From: a virus
IMG/VR virus record: IMGVR_UViG_3300027608_000024
Location: 1 to 64,000 of that record
Length of the DNA: 64,000 nt
Strand: one strand, 5' to 3'
In this document: positions 185 to 50,099 of the stretch, in pieces
Position numbering within the stretch: the first letter of the stretch is position 1
Layout of the letters: each line of letters opens with the position of its first letter
Program-made: the position numbers and the translations under genes
The notes under the pieces: model-generated
The model's input: only the letters and a program-made list of their open reading frames with translations
Database searches by the model: none
Told to the model about the DNA's origin: nothing

Positions 185-197
185 TCTAATCATTAGA
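185..197. promoter_or_regulatory. 13-bp palindrome TCTAATCATTAGA, copy 1
   Basis: First of four TCTAA-NNN-TTAGA sites in about 1 kb. This copy is a perfect palindrome around one central base. It lies just beyond the 3' end of the minus-strand gene at 247-792. It is probably a binding site for a dimeric DNA-binding protein, possibly the product of that gene (inference). Confidence 0.5.
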
Positions 198-246: not shown

Positions 247-792
247 CTACTTGGCCAGAGCGGTCAAGCGTGCTTTCTGCTCAGCAGTAGGCACGTATGA
301 CTTCTTGGTCAATGCCTCAGCCTTAGCCAATGCGTCGTCGAACTTCTCCGCATCGGTCTTGGCTACTGCCTTGTCCTTCAAGGACGCGTTGATCGCCTTG
401 ACGGCGCCCGCCCAAGTAGGTGAGTCACACTCGGTGCAGTAGACATTGAGCACTTCGTCAAGCACCTTGAGTGAGCCTGGCGCATTGAACGCCGAGTTCA
501 CTACCTTGGCAACTTCAGAAGGCGCAAGGCTTTCTGTCGGAGTCATTGACAGGATACGACCAAGGCGTCGGTAGATACCTACTTGAGCCTTGCTGACACC
601 ACTCTCCTTGCTGAGGGTGGTATCGGAGGCCTTGCTTACCCAAATAGATGGGGTGTAACCAAGGCGCTCTTCGTAGTTGGCTTGGGCTGACAGGAGAGTC
701 TGCTTAGCGTCTGCGATACCCCTGAGAGCGGTAACCGCATCGGCGTCGGAGATGATCTCCCACTTGGTCTTATTGAGTGTTGCAGTAGTCAT
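247..792 (-). CDS. Putative HTH DNA-binding protein beside the origin-like region
   Basis: I do not recognise the family. The 181-residue protein has an HTH-like stretch near residues 60-85 (TLSKESGVSKAQVGIYRRLG), where Ser-Lys-x-x-Val resembles the recognition helix of ParB/KorB-type domains. The C-terminal third is rich in Ala and Lys and probably helical. The start chosen is the ATG at 792, preceded by AAAGGTGG at good spacing; an upstream GTG at 801 is less likely. It is one of few minus-strand genes and is surrounded by non-coding DNA holding TCTAA-NNN-TTAGA palindromes, so it may be an autoregulator or a partition/replication protein. That role is inference from position. Confidence 0.6.
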   Translation of the reverse strand: MTTATLNKTKWEIISDADAVTALRGIADAKQTLLSAQANYEERLGYTPSIWVSKASDTTLSKESGVSKAQVGIYRRLGRILSMTPTESLAPSEVAKVVNSAFNAPGSLKVLDEVLNVYCTECDSPTWAGAVKAINASLKDKAVAKTDAEKFDDALAKAEALTKKSYVPTAEQKARLTALAK

Positions 793-838
793 GACGACCA
801 CCTTTCTTTGTTGTTGTTTGATACGTACGACCGTCGGA

Positions 839-851
839 TCTAACCATTAGA
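839..851. promoter_or_regulatory. 13-bp palindrome TCTAACCATTAGA, copy 2 (upstream of the HTH gene)
   Basis: This site lies 47 bp upstream of the start codon of the minus-strand gene at 247-792, where an operator would be expected. It is identical to copy 4 at 1184-1196. Related half-sites (CTAGA/TCTAG) occur nearby at 888-922. Confidence 0.5.
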
Positions 852-960
852 TGGTGACTCATTGTTCGGCGTACTCATAGGAATAATTCCTAGATGATTA
901 CTAGATATGAACTAGATAATCCTGCTCACTACCAAATAACCTGGGCTAACCATTTAGAAC

Positions 961-973
961 TCTAATGATTAGA
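961..973. promoter_or_regulatory. 13-bp palindrome TCTAATGATTAGA, copy 3
   Basis: Perfect palindrome around one central base and the reverse complement of copy 1. It lies 26 bp before the right arm of the long inverted repeat. A degenerate relative with a four-base spacer (CTAACCATTTAG) sits just upstream near 947-958. Confidence 0.5.
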
Positions 974-1064
974 AACCATAGACCTATTTCTAGACCTAAG
1001 TTTGGGTACTCTTTAGTGAGCACCCCCCTGTAGTTCTCCCGCGCCTCTTTCCCCTCGTCTTACC

Positions 1065-1446
1065 TTATCCACAGGCTAGTCATTGCCCTGTGGATAACTC
1101 AGTCCTACTATCTACGCCCGAGGATATCCCGCATAGGATAGGGTGTCAGTACCTTAGGCGCCGTCTCGTGACTAGCGAGACCGTCTAACCATTAGACGCC
1201 CGTAGGAGACACCCCCTACATTAACCCACGCACGCATGGGACTTTGAGGCAGGGGCCACTCCCCGATGACTACCCAACTGCTGAATAGCCCTATTCCGAA
1301 CTGGGGGGGTACCTGTGGATAACTTTATATAGCCCTATTCACCCTGTGGATAACTATTACTGATGCAATGCTCCAACGCGCAGGTTGGGCCAACATATTT
1401 AAAATATACATCGCGCAACCGTCTGTGGATAATGTAATATTCAACT
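1065..1446. other. Candidate replication origin with five perfect DnaA boxes
   Basis: The sequence TTATCCACA occurs on the plus strand at 1065-1073, and its complement TGTGGATAA at 1089-1097, 1314-1322, 1345-1353 and 1424-1432. All five match the bacterial DnaA-box consensus exactly. An AT-rich palindromic stretch (ATATTTAAAATAT, 1395-1407) lies between the last two boxes and could be an unwinding element. A 12-nt direct repeat, ATAGCCCTATTC, occurs at 1285-1296 and 1329-1340, each copy upstream of a box. Hairpins GTCTCG/CGAGAC (1163-1181) and GGGTGTC/GACACCC (1141-1147, 1208-1214) are also present. No gene is visible from 793 to 1446. The layout resembles a chromosomal oriC and suggests recruitment of host DnaA. 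Confidence 0.65.
1184..1196. promoter_or_regulatory. 13-bp palindrome TCTAACCATTAGA, copy 4 (inside origin-like region)
   Basis: Identical to copy 2. It is flanked by G and C, so the arms extend to GTCTAA-CCA-TTAGAC (1183-1197). It lies between the second and third DnaA boxes, so the protein that binds the other palindromes may also act at the origin. Confidence 0.5.
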
Positions 1447-1941
1447 ATGACGCTTAATCCACAACAATTTGCTTTGTACCACGGCACATCACTAGCCAGT
1501 GCTACAAACATCCTTAATAGTGGGTTTGACACTACCCGTCCGTCAATTAACGGTAAACGGTACGGCCAGGCCATGTACTTCACTGAAGACCCTGTAGAAG
1601 CTGCAGACTACGCCACTGATGTAGTTCCTCGTACTGGGGGCCGTCATGATGACCCATACACCGGCACTGTAGCCCCGCTAGAGCCTGGAGCTGTCGTTAC
1701 TGCAGAGTTGTCCCCTAAAGCTCGTTTGGCTACCTCAGATGACCATGGCGCAACCGTTAAAGCAAATCGTGATGGGGAATTCTTTGATGATGGGACTCCT
1801 CTACACGAACATTTAAAATCCCGCGGTTTCCATGGGTATAAAAAATCTGGCGTGAACAAGGAAGGTAAGCCTTACAGCACTGTTGCAGTATGGGACCCAG
1901 ACGCAGTTAAGGTTACCGGAGTTACTGGTAGCCTATCGTAG
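1447..1941 (+). CDS. Putative ADP-ribosyltransferase-fold protein
   Basis: The 164-residue protein begins with the pattern of PARP/toxin-like ADP-ribosyltransferases: LYHGTSLASATNILNSGFD (His12), then GQAMYFTEDPVEAADYA with Tyr44. These would be the first two residues of an H-Y-[EQ] catalytic triad that positions NAD+. The third residue cannot be assigned by eye. Such enzymes modify host or phage macromolecules, and several phages use them on host transcription or translation. The gene starts 15 nt after the last DnaA box, without a clear Shine-Dalgarno sequence. A methyltransferase follows 15 bp downstream. The fold is likely; target and activity are unknown. Confidence 0.6.
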   Translation: MTLNPQQFALYHGTSLASATNILNSGFDTTRPSINGKRYGQAMYFTEDPVEAADYATDVVPRTGGRHDDPYTGTVAPLEPGAVVTAELSPKARLATSDDHGATVKANRDGEFFDDGTPLHEHLKSRGFHGYKKSGVNKEGKPYSTVAVWDPDAVKVTGVTGSLS

Positions 1942-2669: not shown

Positions 2670-3014
2670 ATGGCATCAGACCACAGGGGCAAGCCCTTAC
2701 ATGCAGGTAAGCGTACCGACGACGAAATGCACGCTCAACAAACACAACGACCTACTCCTCGTTTGGTAAGTGCCCTTGGTGCATTGTATGGTACATCAAC
2801 ATACCGGGACCCTGACACAAACCAAGCTCGAATGGTTACTCAAGATACTATTAACAATTACCGAAATGCTCGTGACGAACAGGCCGCTAACCCCCCAGCA
2901 CCTGGCCAACTTCGCTACAACGTGGAAGGAATGCAGAAAGACATTCGTACTTCCTTGACTGCTCGTGATCCCGAGTACCTAGACGCCCTAAACGACCACG
3001 GTCAATCTTACTAA
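2670..3014 (+). CDS. Hypothetical protein with N-terminal MASDHRG tag (1 of 2)
   Basis: Function unknown. The first 19 residues (MASDHRGKPLHAGKRTDDE) match the start of the next gene product at most positions, while the rest of the two proteins is unrelated. The remainder of this 114-residue protein is hydrophilic, with no recognised domain. A strong AGGAGG site precedes the ATG. The shared prefix may be a sorting, processing or packaging signal (inference). Third-position differences between the copies indicate selection on the peptide rather than a recent duplication. Confidence 0.7.
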   Translation: MASDHRGKPLHAGKRTDDEMHAQQTQRPTPRLVSALGALYGTSTYRDPDTNQARMVTQDTINNYRNARDEQAANPPAPGQLRYNVEGMQKDIRTSLTARDPEYLDALNDHGQSY

Positions 3015-3024
3015 GGAGTAACTC

Positions 3025-3675
3025 ATGGCATCAGATCACAGAGGAAACCACGTCCACGCTGGAAAGCGCACTGACGATGAAATCATGGCAAACCCCTTCT
3101 ATATTGCTGGCGACCCTTTGTTGCAGAGCGCAAAAATGGACAAGATGCAGAATCCAGTTCCTAATAGCTCTCCAGTAGGCCAAAACCCAGTTCCTAATAG
3201 TGCTCCAAGCTCACAGGTTCCTAATAGTAGGCCATCAACCAGTGTGCCTAATAGCAGGCCAATGGGTCGCTTTCAAGTTCCTAACAGCAAACCAGTGGGA
3301 CAAAATCCAGTTCCTAATAGCAAACCTTCATCGGTAAAAGCTCAGGCTAATGAGATCATGGGTTATGAAACTGGCAAAGTTCCTCCCATGGTTACTGCTA
3401 AGGGTGTTAAAGAGACAGCTACTAATGCTGGAAACAAGATTGCTAACAGTGGTTATGGCAGCGCAGCAATGGCTGGTGCTGCTGCTGGAGGTGTACTTCT
3501 TGGTGGTGGCATCAACTTGGCGGCTGGTGAAGTTGGCCATCCTGCAGAAAACCTTCCAGTTATGGATACCCCGCAAGTAGCAAAAGGTATGGTAGCTGGA
3601 GCAGCCCTTGGCGTAGCAGGGAAGTTTATTAATGACACCCGCAAAATGTCTAAAGGTTCTCGTAAGCAAAAATAA
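3025..3675 (+). CDS. Tagged protein with six VPNSxP repeats and hydrophobic Gly/Ala segments (2 of 2)
   Basis: The N-terminus (MASDHRGNHVHAGKRTDDE) repeats the tag of the preceding gene. Residues 44-101 carry six copies of VPNSxP separated by short polar spacers. Two glycine/alanine-rich hydrophobic stretches follow, near residues 149-171 and 186-204, and could insert in a membrane. The C-terminus is strongly basic (KMSKGSRKQK). The combination of tag, flexible repeats and membrane-like segments would suit a virion-carried protein or a membrane-targeted host-takeover protein. Neither is shown by the sequence. Confidence 0.7.
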   Translation: MASDHRGNHVHAGKRTDDEIMANPFYIAGDPLLQSAKMDKMQNPVPNSSPVGQNPVPNSAPSSQVPNSRPSTSVPNSRPMGRFQVPNSKPVGQNPVPNSKPSSVKAQANEIMGYETGKVPPMVTAKGVKETATNAGNKIANSGYGSAAMAGAAAGGVLLGGGINLAAGEVGHPAENLPVMDTPQVAKGMVAGAALGVAGKFINDTRKMSKGSRKQK

Positions 3676-12607: not shown

Positions 12608-12967
12608 ATGTCTACATTCGCTAAAAAGATATTGAGTGGCTCTACCGATGGGAGACCAATTTTGGTGGCTGCGACAGCATCTGCTGGAACCGTTATCCAT
12701 ACAGGTCCAACTGTTGCTACAACCCTTGATGAAGTTTGGCTTTACGCCAGCAACCCCTCCGGCGCACAACGAACATTGACAATTCAATGGGGTGGCACAA
12801 CCAGCCCGAACGACCATTTTGTTCTTTTTCTTCCAGCACAAAGCGGTCTTATCGTCATAGCACCTGGTTTAATCATAAAAGGAAACGCAACCCCTCTAGT
12901 TGTTCGTGCTTTTTGTGACTCTGCTAACCAAGTAAACATCAGTGGATATGTAAACGAGATTGCATAA
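12608..12967 (+). CDS. Small virion-associated beta protein
   Basis: A 119-residue protein with alternating strands (TVIHTGPTVATTLDEVWLYA, LTIQWGGTT, LVIAPGLIIKGNATPLVVRA). It resembles small phage head/tail decoration or fibre-cap proteins. TAGGAGATAAAAA precedes the start. The stop overlaps the next start (TAATG), so it is probably made together with the LRR protein and could be its partner or chaperone. Confidence 0.55.
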   Translation: MSTFAKKILSGSTDGRPILVAATASAGTVIHTGPTVATTLDEVWLYASNPSGAQRTLTIQWGGTTSPNDHFVLFLPAQSGLIVIAPGLIIKGNATPLVVRAFCDSANQVNISGYVNEIA

Positions 12968-14700
12968 TGTCAACAAGGTTTTCTGAACGGACTCAACGCA
13001 CAGGTTTTGTTGATGACTTTCTTCCCAATGTTTCAAGTCCATATAGATTTTTAAGAAACACCCAAGGACTGCCTTGGGTTCGCCCACCTGACTGGCTTTC
13101 CACAACTCCCGTAGCCGCTACTGAAGTTTGTTTTTTATATGCGGTGTATGAAGGGGATTCAAACTTTTTTTCATTTACCGTAACCACTTCTTCAGGAAAC
13201 TTCACTGTTGATTGGGGTGATGCGACAAGCAATTCTTACGCATCTGGCACAGTTGTTAGTAAACAATTTTTATGGTCTAGTTACAGTAATGTTACGACAG
13301 GTGGTTTTCGCCAAGCGGTAGTTCGTGTTACGGGAAATATAACTGCTATTGATTTTAACCGCAGACACGCAACTTTGACTTCATCCAATAGTTCATCACA
13401 GATTGTTGAAATAACGGCGCAAGGTTCTAGTATCACTTCCTTTTTAATTGGTAGTGTGGGGACTACCCTAATCACTCATTCTGCACTTCAAAGTTTTTCG
13501 TTTATCGGCACTTGCTCAATAACAAGCATGAATAAAATGTTTAATAATTGCCGTTCTTTGCAGTCTGTATCTTTACCTAATACCAATGCGGTTTTGGACA
13601 TGGCATACATGTTTAACGGCTGTACTTCCTTGCAGTCTGTATCCCTACCTGACACTGGTGCGGTAACAGACATGTCATTTATGTTTAATGAGTGCCGTTC
13701 CTTGCAGTCTGTATCTCTACCTAACACCAGTCAGGTAACAGACATGAGTTACATGTTTGGCAACTGTACTTCTTTGCAGTTTGTATCTCTGCCTAATACC
13801 GATGCAGTTTTGAACATGGCATACATGTTCTACAACTGTACTTCTTTACAGTCTGTATCTCTGCCTAACACTAATGCAGTTTTGAACATGAATGGACTGT
13901 TTAATGAGTGCCGTTCTTTGCAGTCTGTATCTTTGACTGACACTGGTGCGGTAACAGACATGAGTCAAATGTTCCTGAACTGTACTTCCTTGCAGTCTGT
14001 ATCTCTGCCTAATACTGGTGCGGTAACAACCATGTTTGACATGTTTGACGGCTGTACTACATTGCAGTCTGTATCTTTACCTGACACTGGTGCGGTTTTG
14101 GACATGGGATTTATGTTCTTCTTATGTACTTCCTTGCAGTCTGTATCTCTACCTAATACTGGTGCGGTAACAAACATGTCATTGATGTTTTATGTTTGTC
14201 CTTCTTTACAATCTGTATCTCTACCTGACACTGGTGCAGTAACAGACATGTCAGCCATGTTTTATGACTGTACTTCCTTGCAGTCCATATCTCTGCCTAA
14301 TACTGGTGCGGTAACAAACATGTCATCGATGTTTAACACCTGTACTTCCTTGCAGTCCATATCTTTGCCTAATACTGGTGCGGTAACAAGCATGAGTCAG
14401 ATGTTTGGCTCCTGTCTTTCTTTGCAGTCTGTATCTAACCTAAATGGTAATGCAGCAACAGGCAGTAGTGCCTATAGCAGCATGTTTTCAGGTTGTCCTT
14501 CCCTGCAAAGTATCTCTGCAATAAACATGAAATTTACCCACTCAATCGGCAGCCTCAAAATGAGCGCAACAGCATTAAACGCATATTATACAGCACTACC
14601 AACAGTAACATCAAAAACATTGACAGTAACAGGTAACTGGGGAGTCGCAACAGACAACCCGGCTATCGCTACTGCTAAAGGATGGACGGTAACAGGATGA
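12967..14700 (+). CDS. BspA-type leucine-rich-repeat receptor-binding protein
   Basis: Residues 1-170 are a beta-rich head region with FTVDWGDATSN, a PKD-like surface-protein motif. Residues 174-500 are BspA/DUF285-type LRR units with the pattern SLQSVSLPxTxAVxxM-xx-MFxxC. Twelve exact 24-residue units run from 13555 to 14418, flanked by one degenerate unit before and two after. The final 50 residues form a helical cap (MKFTHSIGSLKMSATALNAY). Variation is concentrated in the residue pairs just before MF and just before C, consistent with a recognition surface. It is likely to bind a host surface molecule. Confidence 0.75.
   Translation: MSTRFSERTQRTGFVDDFLPNVSSPYRFLRNTQGLPWVRPPDWLSTTPVAATEVCFLYAVYEGDSNFFSFTVTTSSGNFTVDWGDATSNSYASGTVVSKQFLWSSYSNVTTGGFRQAVVRVTGNITAIDFNRRHATLTSSNSSSQIVEITAQGSSITSFLIGSVGTTLITHSALQSFSFIGTCSITSMNKMFNNCRSLQSVSLPNTNAVLDMAYMFNGCTSLQSVSLPDTGAVTDMSFMFNECRSLQSVSLPNTSQVTDMSYMFGNCTSLQFVSLPNTDAVLNMAYMFYNCTSLQSVSLPNTNAVLNMNGLFNECRSLQSVSLTDTGAVTDMSQMFLNCTSLQSVSLPNTGAVTTMFDMFDGCTTLQSVSLPDTGAVLDMGFMFFLCTSLQSVSLPNTGAVTNMSLMFYVCPSLQSVSLPDTGAVTDMSAMFYDCTSLQSISLPNTGAVTNMSSMFNTCTSLQSISLPNTGAVTSMSQMFGSCLSLQSVSNLNGNAATGSSAYSSMFSGCPSLQSISAINMKFTHSIGSLKMSATALNAYYTALPTVTSKTLTVTGNWGVATDNPAIATAKGWTVTG
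13555..14418 (+). repeat. Twelve tandem 72-bp coding repeats
   Basis: Each unit begins TCTTTGCAGTCTGTATC or a close variant and encodes one 24-residue LRR unit. All twelve are exactly 72 bp, so recombination between units would add or remove repeats without changing frame. Nucleotide identity between units is high at the conserved core and low at the two variable codon pairs. Confidence 0.85.
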
Positions 14701-46098: not shown

Positions 46099-46280
46099 TA
46101 GGTCTCCTAAAAGGGCAAACGCCAGGGTAATAAGGATTGTACCCCATTAACCCCGGCGTTTGCTGACCTACAACCAGGTAGGAGAACCACCAACTTCCCG
46201 GTGCAAAGAGTGTACCAGCGTCAAATTATATTTGCAACGCCGTTGCTAAGTACCTCAAAAGTGTGTACAGTTTCCGACCC
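46099..46280. promoter_or_regulatory. Divergent control region between dps and replication operon
   Basis: There is no gene here. It holds a 9-bp perfect inverted repeat, GCAAACGCC (46115-46123) and GGCGTTTGC (46155-46163), 31 bp apart and flanked inside by GGG/CCCC. A second repeat, CCTAC...GTAGG, lies near 46167-46182. A third, GCAAC-GCC-GTTGC, is at 46234-46246, next to AATTATATTTG, a possible -10. Divergent promoters with shared operators are likely. Confidence 0.5.
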
Positions 46281-47507
46281 ATGACCACCAACCATTTCCA
46301 GGGGCCATTCTTGGCAGTTCCGCTTTGGGCGCATGAACTGATACGTGACTCTGGGCATTCTAGGGACATGCAAGTCTTATTATCTCTTATCGCTCTTATG
46401 GAGCGCCGTACCAAAGAAGTTAGTGCTTCCGTACAACAGATTGCTGATTACTCTGTACTCTCCAAAGAGACTGTCAAGCGTTCCCTTAGGTGGCTAGAAG
46501 AGTCAGGTGTGGTTACAATTGGACGCCGTAAAAAGCCTTCAGTGAATGTTTACACAATTAACTATGCACCAGCAGATGGGGTCAGCGGTGACCCCATTAG
46601 GGCTGTGGATAAGTGGGTAGATAGGGTCACCAGTGACCCTATGATGGGGTCAGCCGTGACCCCATCAAAACCACGTTTGGCCCATACTGCTTGCGGATTA
46701 CGTGACTCTTCTATAGAAGTATTAAATATAGATACTAATAAGGTAAAGAAAGCCGCAAGCGGCCTGGAGGAAGAAATGATCTTAGGTGGAGACCCAGAGG
46801 AGGCCGAAGTGAAAGTGGAAACAAAGGTTAAGAAGAAGAGTCAAAGGAACGTCAACAGTCTGGTCACCCAGTTCATAAGTGACCCACGTACGATTATGAG
46901 CCACAGTTATTCTTATAAGGAAATTATTATCTTACGTAAGACCCTTAACACCCTTAGAGACTCGGGCCTTACAGAGTTCACCGTTTCACAAATGATCAAG
47001 CGATTCCTTGACGTTGAGCACTGGCGTAATTCAGAAACACCAGTTTTAGTTTTTACCAACAAGGCAGTGCAGCAAAAACTCATGGACCAAGTTGACACTG
47101 AGGTTGTTACAGAAGACCCAGTTCTTGCTTTGATGATGAGCGACTTTGAACGTGTCGGTATTAATTTGCCGTGGGATTATACAAACGATCAATTACTAAA
47201 GCGTGAAGTTATTCGTCACGGCATTGACATCTGCTACCGCTACCCTGAAGTTGTGGCAGAACTAATTAAAACCCACAATGGTGTACCAAGTACAAACTTT
47301 ACTGCAACTTTGCGTGCGCTAAACTCTCTTGTAAGGGTTTTATCTGGCGAAGAAGATGGTGACTTAACCGAACTTCACGCTGCGGTGTCTTCTGTGAGTC
47401 TTCCACCAGAACTACACAAAACTTCAAAGAAAGATCTGCGCCCTGCGGCAGAATCTCTACTTGAAGCCGTGTACAACTACAGGAGAAGTACTCATGGACG
47501 AAAGTGA
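46281..47507 (+). CDS. Winged-helix replication initiator (DnaD/lambda O-like)
   Basis: Start ATG 46281 (MTTNHFQGPF); a GTG at 46263 is in frame. Residues 20-95 form a winged helix (VLLSLIALMERRTKEVSASV, then KETVKRSLRWLEESGVVTIG) of the HTH_36/Rep type. Residues 99-128 are a linker encoded by three 22-bp palindromes and a DnaA box. The C-terminal half (SYKEIIILRKTLNTLRDSGL, MIKRFLDVEHWRN) is helical and could contact helicase or loader. The loader, helicase and primase genes follow directly. Organisation and self-encoded iterons closely parallel lambda O and its ori. Confidence 0.75.
   Translation: MTTNHFQGPFLAVPLWAHELIRDSGHSRDMQVLLSLIALMERRTKEVSASVQQIADYSVLSKETVKRSLRWLEESGVVTIGRRKKPSVNVYTINYAPADGVSGDPIRAVDKWVDRVTSDPMMGSAVTPSKPRLAHTACGLRDSSIEVLNIDTNKVKKAASGLEEEMILGGDPEEAEVKVETKVKKKSQRNVNSLVTQFISDPRTIMSHSYSYKEIIILRKTLNTLRDSGLTEFTVSQMIKRFLDVEHWRNSETPVLVFTNKAVQQKLMDQVDTEVVTEDPVLALMMSDFERVGINLPWDYTNDQLLKREVIRHGIDICYRYPEVVAELIKTHNGVPSTNFTATLRALNSLVRVLSGEEDGDLTELHAAVSSVSLPPELHKTSKKDLRPAAESLLEAVYNYRRSTHGRK
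46576..46760. other. Candidate origin inside initiator gene: three iterons, a DnaA box and an AT-rich region
   Basis: Three perfect 22-bp palindromes with 9-bp arms and 4-bp spacers: 46576-46597 and 46644-46665 (ATGGGGTCA/TGACCCCAT) and 46621-46642 (ATAGGGTCA/TGACCCTAT). A perfect DnaA box, TGTGGATAA (46604-46612), fills the 23-bp gap between the first and second, so units recur at about 22.5 bp, roughly two helical turns. A 56-bp AT-rich stretch (46697-46752) follows, framed by GCTTGCGG (46689-46696) and CCGCAAGC (46753-46760). This matches iteron-plus-unwinding-element origins. Confidence 0.75.
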
Positions 47508-47850
47508 ACCTATGTATGTCTTTGAAAACATAAACGACATTTTGATCTTTGCTCAATGGGTGCACGAGAATTTTGAGTCCCCCGAAGAGTACGAAGGTTG
47601 GTTTGAGCATTCACTTGACTTAGCCGTCCCTTCAGAAGTTTTTTGTACTCGTCCACAAAAGAAAGTGGAAAAGATGCATGTCTGTGTAGAGTGCAAAGCC
47701 CAGTTCACAACAAAGTCAGGATTAAGCATCCATCACAATGTTGTGCACACACGCAAGTTGGATAACGCAGAATTCTGGGACATAATCAAAACCACTTACA
47801 ACGACCACAACGAGGACCACAATGAGCCAAACATTTCAGACACCGACTGA
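47494..47850 (+). CDS. C2H2 zinc-finger protein
   Basis: Start ATG 47494 with AGGAGAAGTACTC upstream; overlaps the initiator gene by 14 bp. The 118-residue protein has an acidic helical N-terminus (INDILIFAQWVHENFESPEE) and a single C2H2 finger, Cys64-x2-Cys67-x12-His80-x4-His85 (HVCVECKAQF, GLSIHHNVVH), which is rare in bacteria but known in some phages. The tail is acidic and His-rich. It is probably a DNA-binding or protein-bridging factor in replication. Confidence 0.7.
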   Translation: MDESEPMYVFENINDILIFAQWVHENFESPEEYEGWFEHSLDLAVPSEVFCTRPQKKVEKMHVCVECKAQFTTKSGLSIHHNVVHTRKLDNAEFWDIIKTTYNDHNEDHNEPNISDTD

Positions 47851-48406
47851 TTGGAAGTCAGCAGCTTGGTGGCGTAACCGTTCTCCAGAAGAACGTGTAT
47901 TTCATTCTAAAATACCTCGCAGATTTGCTGACTGCGAAGATATCACTAACCCAAAGATTGCAAAATGGGTTATGGATTACAAACAAGGCGACAGCATTCT
48001 CATTCAGGGCAAGCCAGGAACTGGAAAATCAACAATGGCCCAAGCCGTACTTAGGGCGCTTGTTTTAGACAACCCTCTGTCAGGTCGCTTTGTCACATCC
48101 GATAGATACATTGAGATGCTCAAAGACCAGTTTGACAACGACAATCTTCTTCCAGAGATGTACTCAAGTCCATACCTGATTAAGTACATCCAAGGGGTCT
48201 TTGACATTGTTGTCCTTGACGGTGTTGGCCAAGAACGTGAAACAGAATTCTCAATCCATGAAATTGGTAGTTTGATTCGGCGTCGTCACGAAGACATGCG
48301 CACAACAATCATTACAACAACTCTTGGAGTCTCTGACTTTACACGTCGCTACGGTGACCGTGTTAAAAGTGCCGTGCTTGACATGGTGGAAGTCAAGGTT
48401 GTGTGA
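47822..48406 (+). CDS. Helicase loader, DnaC/IstB-type AAA+ ATPase
   Basis: A 194-residue single-domain ATPase. Walker A is IQGKPGTGKSTMAQAVL near residue 63, Walker B is FDIVVLDGVGQE near 126 (Asp-Gly in place of Asp-Asp/Glu), and sensor-like TTLGVSDFTRRYGDRV follows with an arginine-finger candidate. N-terminal WWRNRSPEERVFHSKIPRRF is typical of DnaC-like proteins. It would load the DnaB-like helicase encoded two genes downstream onto origin DNA. Confidence 0.82.
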   Translation: MSQTFQTPTDWKSAAWWRNRSPEERVFHSKIPRRFADCEDITNPKIAKWVMDYKQGDSILIQGKPGTGKSTMAQAVLRALVLDNPLSGRFVTSDRYIEMLKDQFDNDNLLPEMYSSPYLIKYIQGVFDIVVLDGVGQERETEFSIHEIGSLIRRRHEDMRTTIITTTLGVSDFTRRYGDRVKSAVLDMVEVKVV

Positions 48407-48846
48407 TGGAGGCTGGAGACATTGGAGTTGGCTCACGCATTGGGCAAGCATGTGTTTTTGAGGGCGTACTAGCATCACCACCTGTAGGTGTTGCACTTGT
48501 TAAAGAGAAATATCACATTCGCCGTGGCTCTTGGGACGATGCATTAAAGCTTTGGACACCTAACGAACTCCCACTGAAGTCTTTAATTGATTCATCCGAA
48601 AGAATGGGGATTGCTACCGACATCATTACATTCCTTGACGCAGACGCAGTTGAACCAATGTACAGGTGGCTTGTAAGAAAAGGAATACACCTAGCGGTAG
48701 TTCACTATGACACACCCGAACTGTACGCTGAAGATCTTAAGTACAACCGTGGCGTAAAGGTTGTCTACACACCCAACAAAGAAATTGCTTACACACTTGG
48801 CATGCGAGCCACGGTAGTTAGCCCCAAATCGGCCTGGAGACTCTGA
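48406..48846 (+). CDS. Hypothetical protein in replication operon
   Basis: ATG 48406 overlaps the loader stop (TGATG). A 146-residue alpha/beta protein with ATDIITFLDADAVEPMYRWL, HLAVVHYDTPELYAEDL and VVYTPNKEIAYTLGMRATVV. The alternating strand-helix pattern suggests a HAD-like or receiver-like fold (Asp-rich loop after a strand), but catalytic residues are not complete. It sits between loader and helicase, so a regulatory role in priming is possible. Confidence 0.5.
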   Translation: MEAGDIGVGSRIGQACVFEGVLASPPVGVALVKEKYHIRRGSWDDALKLWTPNELPLKSLIDSSERMGIATDIITFLDADAVEPMYRWLVRKGIHLAVVHYDTPELYAEDLKYNRGVKVVYTPNKEIAYTLGMRATVVSPKSAWRL

Positions 48847-50099
48847 TGGCATCTAGTGAACTTTACTTAGTTTCAAAAGTCATTCTTGAAAAAGAAACAA
48901 ACATACCTATTCGTGCTGGGCTAAAGCCAGACCACCTAACTGGTGAGTGGCAAGGTGTATGGCAGTGGATCTTAGAGTTCCAACGTGCTCATGGTTCTGT
49001 ACCTACTGAGCGTGTATTCATGCAACAGTTTGGTGGCATCACCTTACATGACGTCAAGGACGAACCATTCTCAAGATTGCTTGATGAAATCTTTGATGCT
49101 TACCGCAAGCGTTGCATGCTGGACGCATTACAACCAGCAATCAATGCACTCAACGACGATGACATTGACAAAGCAATGTCAACACTTGCGTCGGGTTTAC
49201 AGAAAGCAAGTGTTGAAGCTTCTAGGTTGCGTGACGTAGACATTATTCAAAACTACGAGAACCGTCTTAACCGCTATGAAGAGATGCGCTTACAACCAAA
49301 CGCACTACGCGGAATCCCTACAGGATTTCATGGTCTTGACAAGATCACGCATGGCCTACGCCCACAGCAGTTCATTGTCTTTGCAGGTGAGCCTAAGCGT
49401 GGTAAATCTTTGTTTGCCTTGATCGTTGCTAACTCAGCGCACATCTACGGCAAGCGCCCTCTCTTCGTGTCCTTTGAAATGAGCATTGAAGAACAGGAGG
49501 CTCGCTACGACGCTTTGATTGCAAAAGTACCGTATGGCCGAATCCTTGCTGGAGATCTCACGAACAAGGACATGGAGAAAATTCGTAAAGCATTATCCAT
49601 CCGCAAACACATGCAACCGTTTGTGTTCAGTGAGGACACCGCTTCTCTAACAACTGTTAGCGGGCTTGCTGGAAAAGTACAAGAGTACCAACCGGACTTG
49701 CTAGTCGTGGACGGCGTGTACCTAATGGATGACGAAGAGGGCGAAGCAAAAGGTTCACCTCAAGCACTCACCAATATCACTCGTTCACTAAAACGACTTG
49801 CACAAAGGTTTGACATTCCTGTAGTTGCCACAACCCAAGTACTGTCTTGGAAACTAGGGAACAAGAAGACGCGTGCGGTAACAGCAGACGCAATTGGTTA
49901 CACCTCCTCATTCGCTCAAGACGCCGACTTAATCCTTGGTGTTGAGCGCAACCCAGACATGGATGACCAAGCAATCATCAGAGTTGTACTAGCAAGGTCT
50001 TCGCCAAATGGTGAAGTACACATCAAGTGGGATTGGACAACAATGGAGTTTGAGGAGGTATACGAGAATGGCGCAGACTTCGACCCCTCTTTCGACTGA
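48846..50099 (+). CDS. dnaB-like: Replicative DNA helicase, DnaB-like
   Basis: A 417-residue RecA-fold helicase. The N-terminal 130 residues are the helical primase-interaction domain. Walker A is FAGEPKRGKSLFALIVANSA near residue 180. H1a-like LFVSFEMSIEEQEARYD follows. Walker B is LLVVDGVYLMDD near 284, then IPVVATTQVLSWK and the DLILGVERN arginine region. Lys in the P-loop is intact, but GEPKRGKS differs from the usual GRPxxGKT. It unwinds DNA at the fork and overlaps the primase gene by 32 bp. Confidence 0.85.
   Translation: MASSELYLVSKVILEKETNIPIRAGLKPDHLTGEWQGVWQWILEFQRAHGSVPTERVFMQQFGGITLHDVKDEPFSRLLDEIFDAYRKRCMLDALQPAINALNDDDIDKAMSTLASGLQKASVEASRLRDVDIIQNYENRLNRYEEMRLQPNALRGIPTGFHGLDKITHGLRPQQFIVFAGEPKRGKSLFALIVANSAHIYGKRPLFVSFEMSIEEQEARYDALIAKVPYGRILAGDLTNKDMEKIRKALSIRKHMQPFVFSEDTASLTTVSGLAGKVQEYQPDLLVVDGVYLMDDEEGEAKGSPQALTNITRSLKRLAQRFDIPVVATTQVLSWKLGNKKTRAVTADAIGYTSSFAQDADLILGVERNPDMDDQAIIRVVLARSSPNGEVHIKWDWTTMEFEEVYENGADFDPSFD

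Follow-up and report, generated by a model that had tools for sequence, protein, structure and literature searches.

An array of exact DnaA boxes in a divergent intergenic region of a contractile-tailed phage, 45 kb from a candidate replication origin

Does a cluster of DnaA boxes in a phage genome mark a replication origin, or does it point to another use of the host initiator? We addressed this question for a locus in a viral record of 73,109 bases from IMG/VR (G000), bases 1–64,000 of which form the stretch analysed here (the window). A sequence-only reading had described the locus as an oriC-like array that might serve DnaA-dependent initiation, DnaA titration or plasmid-like maintenance. 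The record encodes a contractile-tailed phage (portal, major head, sheath and baseplate genes) with its own replication set: an O-like initiator, a DnaC-like loader, a DnaB-like helicase, primase, SSB and DNA polymerase. Since syntenic relatives are about 90–99 kb long and their contig ends are shifted, the record probably lacks roughly 19 kb; comparison of its first 3 kb with its last 10 kb revealed no end repeats of 20 bases or more. A WhiB gene, together with terminase similarity to Streptomyces phages, points to an actinobacterial host. The nearest isolates by terminase (BRock, Alone3, pSt2308 and GiJojo; 46–47% identity) have TTRTCCACA sites without any box cluster, unlike the window phage, and a search of genome contigs for terminase relatives that might identify the host found none.

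Five exact boxes between divergent genes

Five exact copies of TTATCCACA (the consensus of the host's own DnaA box may differ) lie at 1065–1432 (Table 1), as the sequence-only reading had reported. Its estimate that fewer than one copy would arise by chance agrees with ours, which is 0.64 in 64 kb on both strands. The Poisson chance of five or more exact boxes in a given 368 bp is about 5e-15, and dinucleotide shuffles of the 645-bp intergenic region gave a mean of 0.003 boxes and a maximum of 1. We rejected chance or a compositional artefact. The record holds only one other exact copy, at 46604 on the minus strand. When one mismatch was allowed, we counted 20 boxes genome-wide against 17.6 expected; there is thus no excess of near-boxes, one of which (TAATCCACA) lies at 1455, just within the next open reading frame (ORF), and the exact boxes hold the whole signal.

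Table 1. Coordinates of features in the window (strand given as + or −; a dot marks features without strand)
Feature	Position	Strand	Remarks
13-bp palindrome TCTAA-NNN-TTAGA	185..197	.	
ORFan left of array	247..801	−	no family match
Putative divergent intergenic control region with array	802..1446 (645 bp)	.	between ORF 247-801(−) and ORF 1447-1941(+); homologous divergent intergenic region in relatives
13-bp palindrome TCTAA-NNN-TTAGA	839..851	.	
13-bp palindrome TCTAA-NNN-TTAGA	961..973	.	
Dyad element, left copy (ATAGACCTATTT)	978..989	+	repeat comparison
DnaA box 1 (TTATCCACA)	1065..1073	+	exact match
DnaA box 2	1089..1097	−	exact match
13-bp palindrome TCTAA-NNN-TTAGA	1184..1196	.	
Dyad element, copy 1 (ATAGCCCTATTC)	1285..1296	+	repeat and alignment with relatives
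DnaA box 3	1314..1322	−	ends 2 bp before putative −10 TTATAT (1325-1330); same register in relatives
Dyad element, copy 2	1329..1340	+	overlaps putative −10
DnaA box 4	1345..1353	−	31 bp from box 3; conserved in L001 and L155
Imperfect hairpin around AT-rich palindrome (GGTTGGGC ... GCGCAACC)	1383..1420	.	palindrome at 1395-1407
DnaA box 5	1424..1432	−	ends 2 bp before putative −10 TAATAT (1435-1440)
Predicted ADP-ribosyltransferase (ART), first right-hand gene	1447..1941	+	PARP PF00644, E=4e-9, above cut-off
O-like replication initiator	46263..47507	+	PHROG 270/428/391
Origin iteron 1 (palindromic, 23-nt)	46575..46597	.	
DnaA box between iterons 1 and 2 (sixth exact)	46604..46612	−	
Origin iteron 2 (palindromic, 23-nt)	46620..46642	.	
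Origin iteron 3 (palindromic, 23-nt)	46643..46665	.	
AT-rich stretch, likely unwinding element of candidate origin	46712..46751	.	82% AT
DnaC-like helicase loader	47822..48406	+	PHROG 50
DnaB-like replicative helicase	48846..50099	+	PHROG 19; PF03796

The array was said to occupy gene-free DNA, and we found no gene between the two flanking ORFs. Viral contigs yielded no relatives of the left-hand ORFan, and the left-hand genes of related phages are poorly alike (18–32%). Neither dnaA nor dnaN is among the genes identified as neighbours of the array. Different genes in the first right-hand position (1447-1941, L001:6497-6964 and L157:1767-2741) begin with a common N-terminal leader, MTLNPxQF, which suggests gene swapping behind a conserved start. 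A DHRG..HAGKRT-like motif, which may be a targeting leader, recurs at the N-terminus of several small ORFs close to the array (2670-3014, 3025-3675, L001:7070-7297, L002:4821-5195 and L267:881-1207). Further along, ORF 12967-14700 contains a tandem repeat with a 72-bp unit in about 12 copies (13554-14443).

Two further elements of the sequence-only reading were present as described: a duplicated 12-mer, ATAGCCCTATTC, at 1285 and 1329, and an AT-rich palindrome, ATATTT-A-AAATAT, at 1395–1407. The leftward block beside the array carries 13-bp palindromes of 5-3-5 layout in the window, G002, L157, L267 and L268. Their arms are specific to the genome (TCTAA in G000, GCTAG in G002, CCTAA in G022 and G026, TCTCA in G031), and in a Markov control on 4 kb of G000 and G002, 79 of 80 runs gave at most two same-arm copies and one run gave three. 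These palindromes resemble operators for a phage repressor with drifting specificity. A scan for consensus sigma-70 promoters returned two promoter-like sites, not above the 1.2 expected from shuffles; hence, our −10 calls rest on alignment with relatives.

A candidate origin inside the initiator gene

The reading of the array as the sole, oriC-like origin is weakened by a candidate origin that we identified at 46.6 kb, within the gene for the O-like initiator. A GTCA-N4-TGAC palindrome recurs two to three times in each of the 11 family initiator genes examined (11/11), in phages with or without the array, and the most AT-rich 40-mer of the gene lies no more than 140 bp 3′ of these iterons in all 11. 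The iteron arms vary, being GGG/CCC in most genomes, AGG/CCT in G026 and GTG/CAC in G031. This architecture, with iterons inside an initiator gene and an adjoining AT-rich stretch, resembles that of ori-lambda. The AlphaFold model of the initiator (mean pLDDT 67.7) has a winged-helix N-terminal part, a helical C-terminal part and, at residues 106–194, a disordered linker that spans most of the stretch encoded by the iterons; PDB matches are weak (best E=0.042), and we regard the protein as a putative iteron-binding winged-helix initiator.

An exact DnaA box occurs in the initiator gene of G000 and its close relatives, and in that of G020, where about 70 bp separate it from the iterons; those of the nine remaining genomes in the comparison contain none. 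In both G000 (46604) and G020 (37807), this box, at or near the initiator iterons, is the only exact one outside the array in the record. Replication of the phage most likely starts at the iterons in the initiator gene, 45 kb from the array, a position that we infer from this conserved architecture.

The claim of a DnaA-dependent, oriC-like origin stands as to the cluster of boxes, and is weakened as to origin function, since the phage has an initiator/iteron origin at another site, one that is conserved in relatives with the array and in those without it. An AT-rich element beside the boxes is not consistently found across relatives: several have an AT-rich 60-mer near the array, and the G026 and G031 arrays have no AT-rich stretch (lowest 60-bp GC 0.47), which weakens the origin reading further, as does the interleaving of the boxes with promoter-like elements. 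GC skew in relatives turns at the boundary of divergent transcription; because gene orientation switches at the same point, the skew cannot serve as an origin signal.

The array might still be a second, or first-round, DnaA-dependent origin beside that of the initiator. Its consensus boxes are clustered, and when box 5 of the window is read on the minus strand, a GC-rich 12-mer comes next and an AT-rich stretch after it, as at E. coli R1/DUE; the AT-rich 60-mers of several relatives would also suit an origin. We nevertheless consider a second origin unlikely: every one of the 11 initiator genes shows the conserved origin architecture, the arrays of G026 and G031 lack an AT-rich stretch, the skew change is confounded by gene strand, and the number of boxes varies, with just two in the intergenic regions of G022 and G019 and none in some related phages.

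The same locus in related phages

The array is not peculiar to the window. At least seven related contigs (G001, G002, G019, G020, G022, G026 and G031) carry one at the corresponding locus, with two to seven exact intergenic boxes in each, two being the full complement in G022 and G019; shuffles of these intergenic regions and that of G000 gave means of 0.01 boxes or less. The equivalent regions of G009, G010, G011 and G048 contain neither exact boxes nor degenerate TTNTNCACA boxes. In the phages that could be aligned, a dyad, (AT/GT)AGNCCTATTC, occurs in two copies 44–64 bp apart. Those with the array have boxes between the two dyads; in G009, G010 and G011, the same two dyads enclose unrelated sequence without boxes. 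In six aligned phages, the right-hand box ends exactly 2 bp upstream of a −10-like hexamer, which itself extends into the second dyad. Further downstream, the window and L155 have another box that ends 2 bp before such a hexamer (TAATAT). Boxes in register with putative promoter elements, as would be expected of a DnaA-regulated promoter, thus occur twice in the window and also in aligned relatives. The aligned phages share ancestry, so the recurring spacing represents fewer independent events than phages. Where other array phages have two boxes the window has one, and its dyads are 18 bp closer together than those of L001; because 18 bp is also the box-to-box distance in L001, L155, L157 and L002, this points to a deletion between boxes in the window.

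The spacing is not universal: no box of G026 comes closer than about 300 bp to the right-hand dyads, and the boxes of G031 are inverted relative to the right-hand gene. This variation keeps alive both a second origin and a third possibility, that the array is a sink through which amplified phage DNA would take host DnaA out of circulation and so prevent initiation on the host chromosome. Consensus boxes are numerous, a sponge would tolerate turnover in their position and orientation, as in G031, and box regions on plasmids titrate DnaA in E. coli (PMC5835720). A sink would, however, need neither a 2-bp register to −10-like hexamers nor placement in one promoter region, and some intergenic regions have two boxes only. 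Titration, which the sequence-only reading had also proposed, is in our view improbable as the main function, to about the same degree as a second origin.

That reading's premise that phages rarely carry such arrays did not hold in IMG/VR. At least 120 IMG/VR stretches contain three tandem boxes (prophage or host sequence possibly included), and among the matches listed, unrelated viral contigs, L110, L097, L088 and L041 among them, have 5–11 exact DnaA boxes within 400 bp (52 of 198 loci; host contamination possible). Ten genes flanking unrelated arrays mostly gave no match or matched unknown PHROGs; two matched terminase small subunits, one of them weakly. Judged from these counts, the array as such does not appear to be rare; its unusual aspects appear to be a location within a promoter region, at a distance from a recognisable origin, and slot-for-slot replacement in relatives. 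The open-access literature searched contained no description of arrays of this kind in phage promoters.

A control region that may respond to host DnaA

Are the boxes read by DnaA? The invariant core in several lineages, double boxes with gaps of 2–3 bp (two in G002, and others in G026 and G031) and the lack of DnaA domain IV in the phage records searched support this indirectly. E. coli DnaA in vivo prefers double boxes with 2–3 bp gaps, largely at regulated genes (PMC11317965). The C-terminal domain of DnaA (Bac_DnaA_C, domain IV) was absent from all eight phage records searched (0/8), on which ground we rejected a phage-encoded DnaA. The box core is identical across array phages, whereas iteron arms and 13-bp palindromes differ between genomes; the identity of the core is partly by construction, as exact boxes were searched, and the argument rests on counts against shuffles. 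This pattern fits boxes read by a host protein and drifting sites read presumably by phage proteins. Another protein, for instance an RNA polymerase factor or a regulator from either phage or host, might instead read sites that merely resemble DnaA boxes. The tight coupling to promoter-like elements, the conservation of flanks beyond the 9-mer (G/C before, GG after) and the different sequence that related phages have in the same slots would all suit such a reader. We consider it the least probable of the alternatives, since other phage-type sites drift and the exact 9-mer does not, the 2–3 bp double boxes match DnaA, and in both G000 and G020 the one exact box outside the array falls within the initiator gene, at the iterons or close to them.

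At roughly even confidence, we favour the reading that the array is not the replication origin but a control region between divergent genes that responds to host DnaA and incidentally titrates it. DnaA is an established transcriptional activator and repressor (PMC8203912) and, in lambda, affects transcription near ori-lambda (PMC3985674). We infer that the −10-like hexamers belong to active promoters and that host DnaA binds the boxes between and just upstream of them. Bound DnaA would modulate, and most simply repress, rightward transcription of the ART and methyltransferase genes; repression is the simplest sign because a protein 2 bp upstream of a −10 element would be expected to compete with RNA polymerase. 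In relatives with left-hand clusters, leftward transcription would probably also be modulated. The level of free DnaA, set by the replication state of the host and by titrating phage copies, would then determine phage gene expression, and the single box at the iterons may assist the start of replication. More tentatively, and with clearly less confidence, we propose that this uncultured actinobacterial phage family may carry host-matched DnaA-box arrays in promoter slots that relatives fill otherwise, sensing host replication state and phage copy number and controlling divergent operons separately from its own origin.

If this is right, a phage regulatory region is wired to the host replication initiator while physically apart from the phage origin, and DnaA-dependent control of phage transcription becomes testable outside lambda. 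The window phage family, in which a candidate initiator-iteron origin could be located independently, also shows that an array of DnaA boxes in a phage is not enough to identify an origin.

Among known systems, lambda has ori-lambda inside gene O. Like the window phage, it has an initiator gene with internal iterons and an AT-rich stretch. It likewise has host DnaA sites near phage promoters (pR, pO) (PMC3985674). The footprinted pO sites merely resemble the consensus and lie near the origin, whereas the window phage has an array of several exact boxes in a divergent region 45 kb from its candidate origin. Bacterial oriC shares the cluster of DnaA boxes; in contrast, the window phage family has no consistent AT-rich element across relatives and has another origin candidate. 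datA and other DnaA titration loci are, like the window array, gene-free clusters of DnaA boxes (PMC5835720), but datA needs an IHF site and drives ATP hydrolysis, and the window array lies within a putative promoter region. E. coli double-box promoters have 2–3 bp pairs of the kind also found in G002, G026 and G031 (PMC11317965); they belong to chromosomal bacterial genes, and the window itself has no such pair. As at the DnaA-regulated promoters of E. coli purH, mioC and dnaA, exact or near-exact boxes here lie beside putative promoters.
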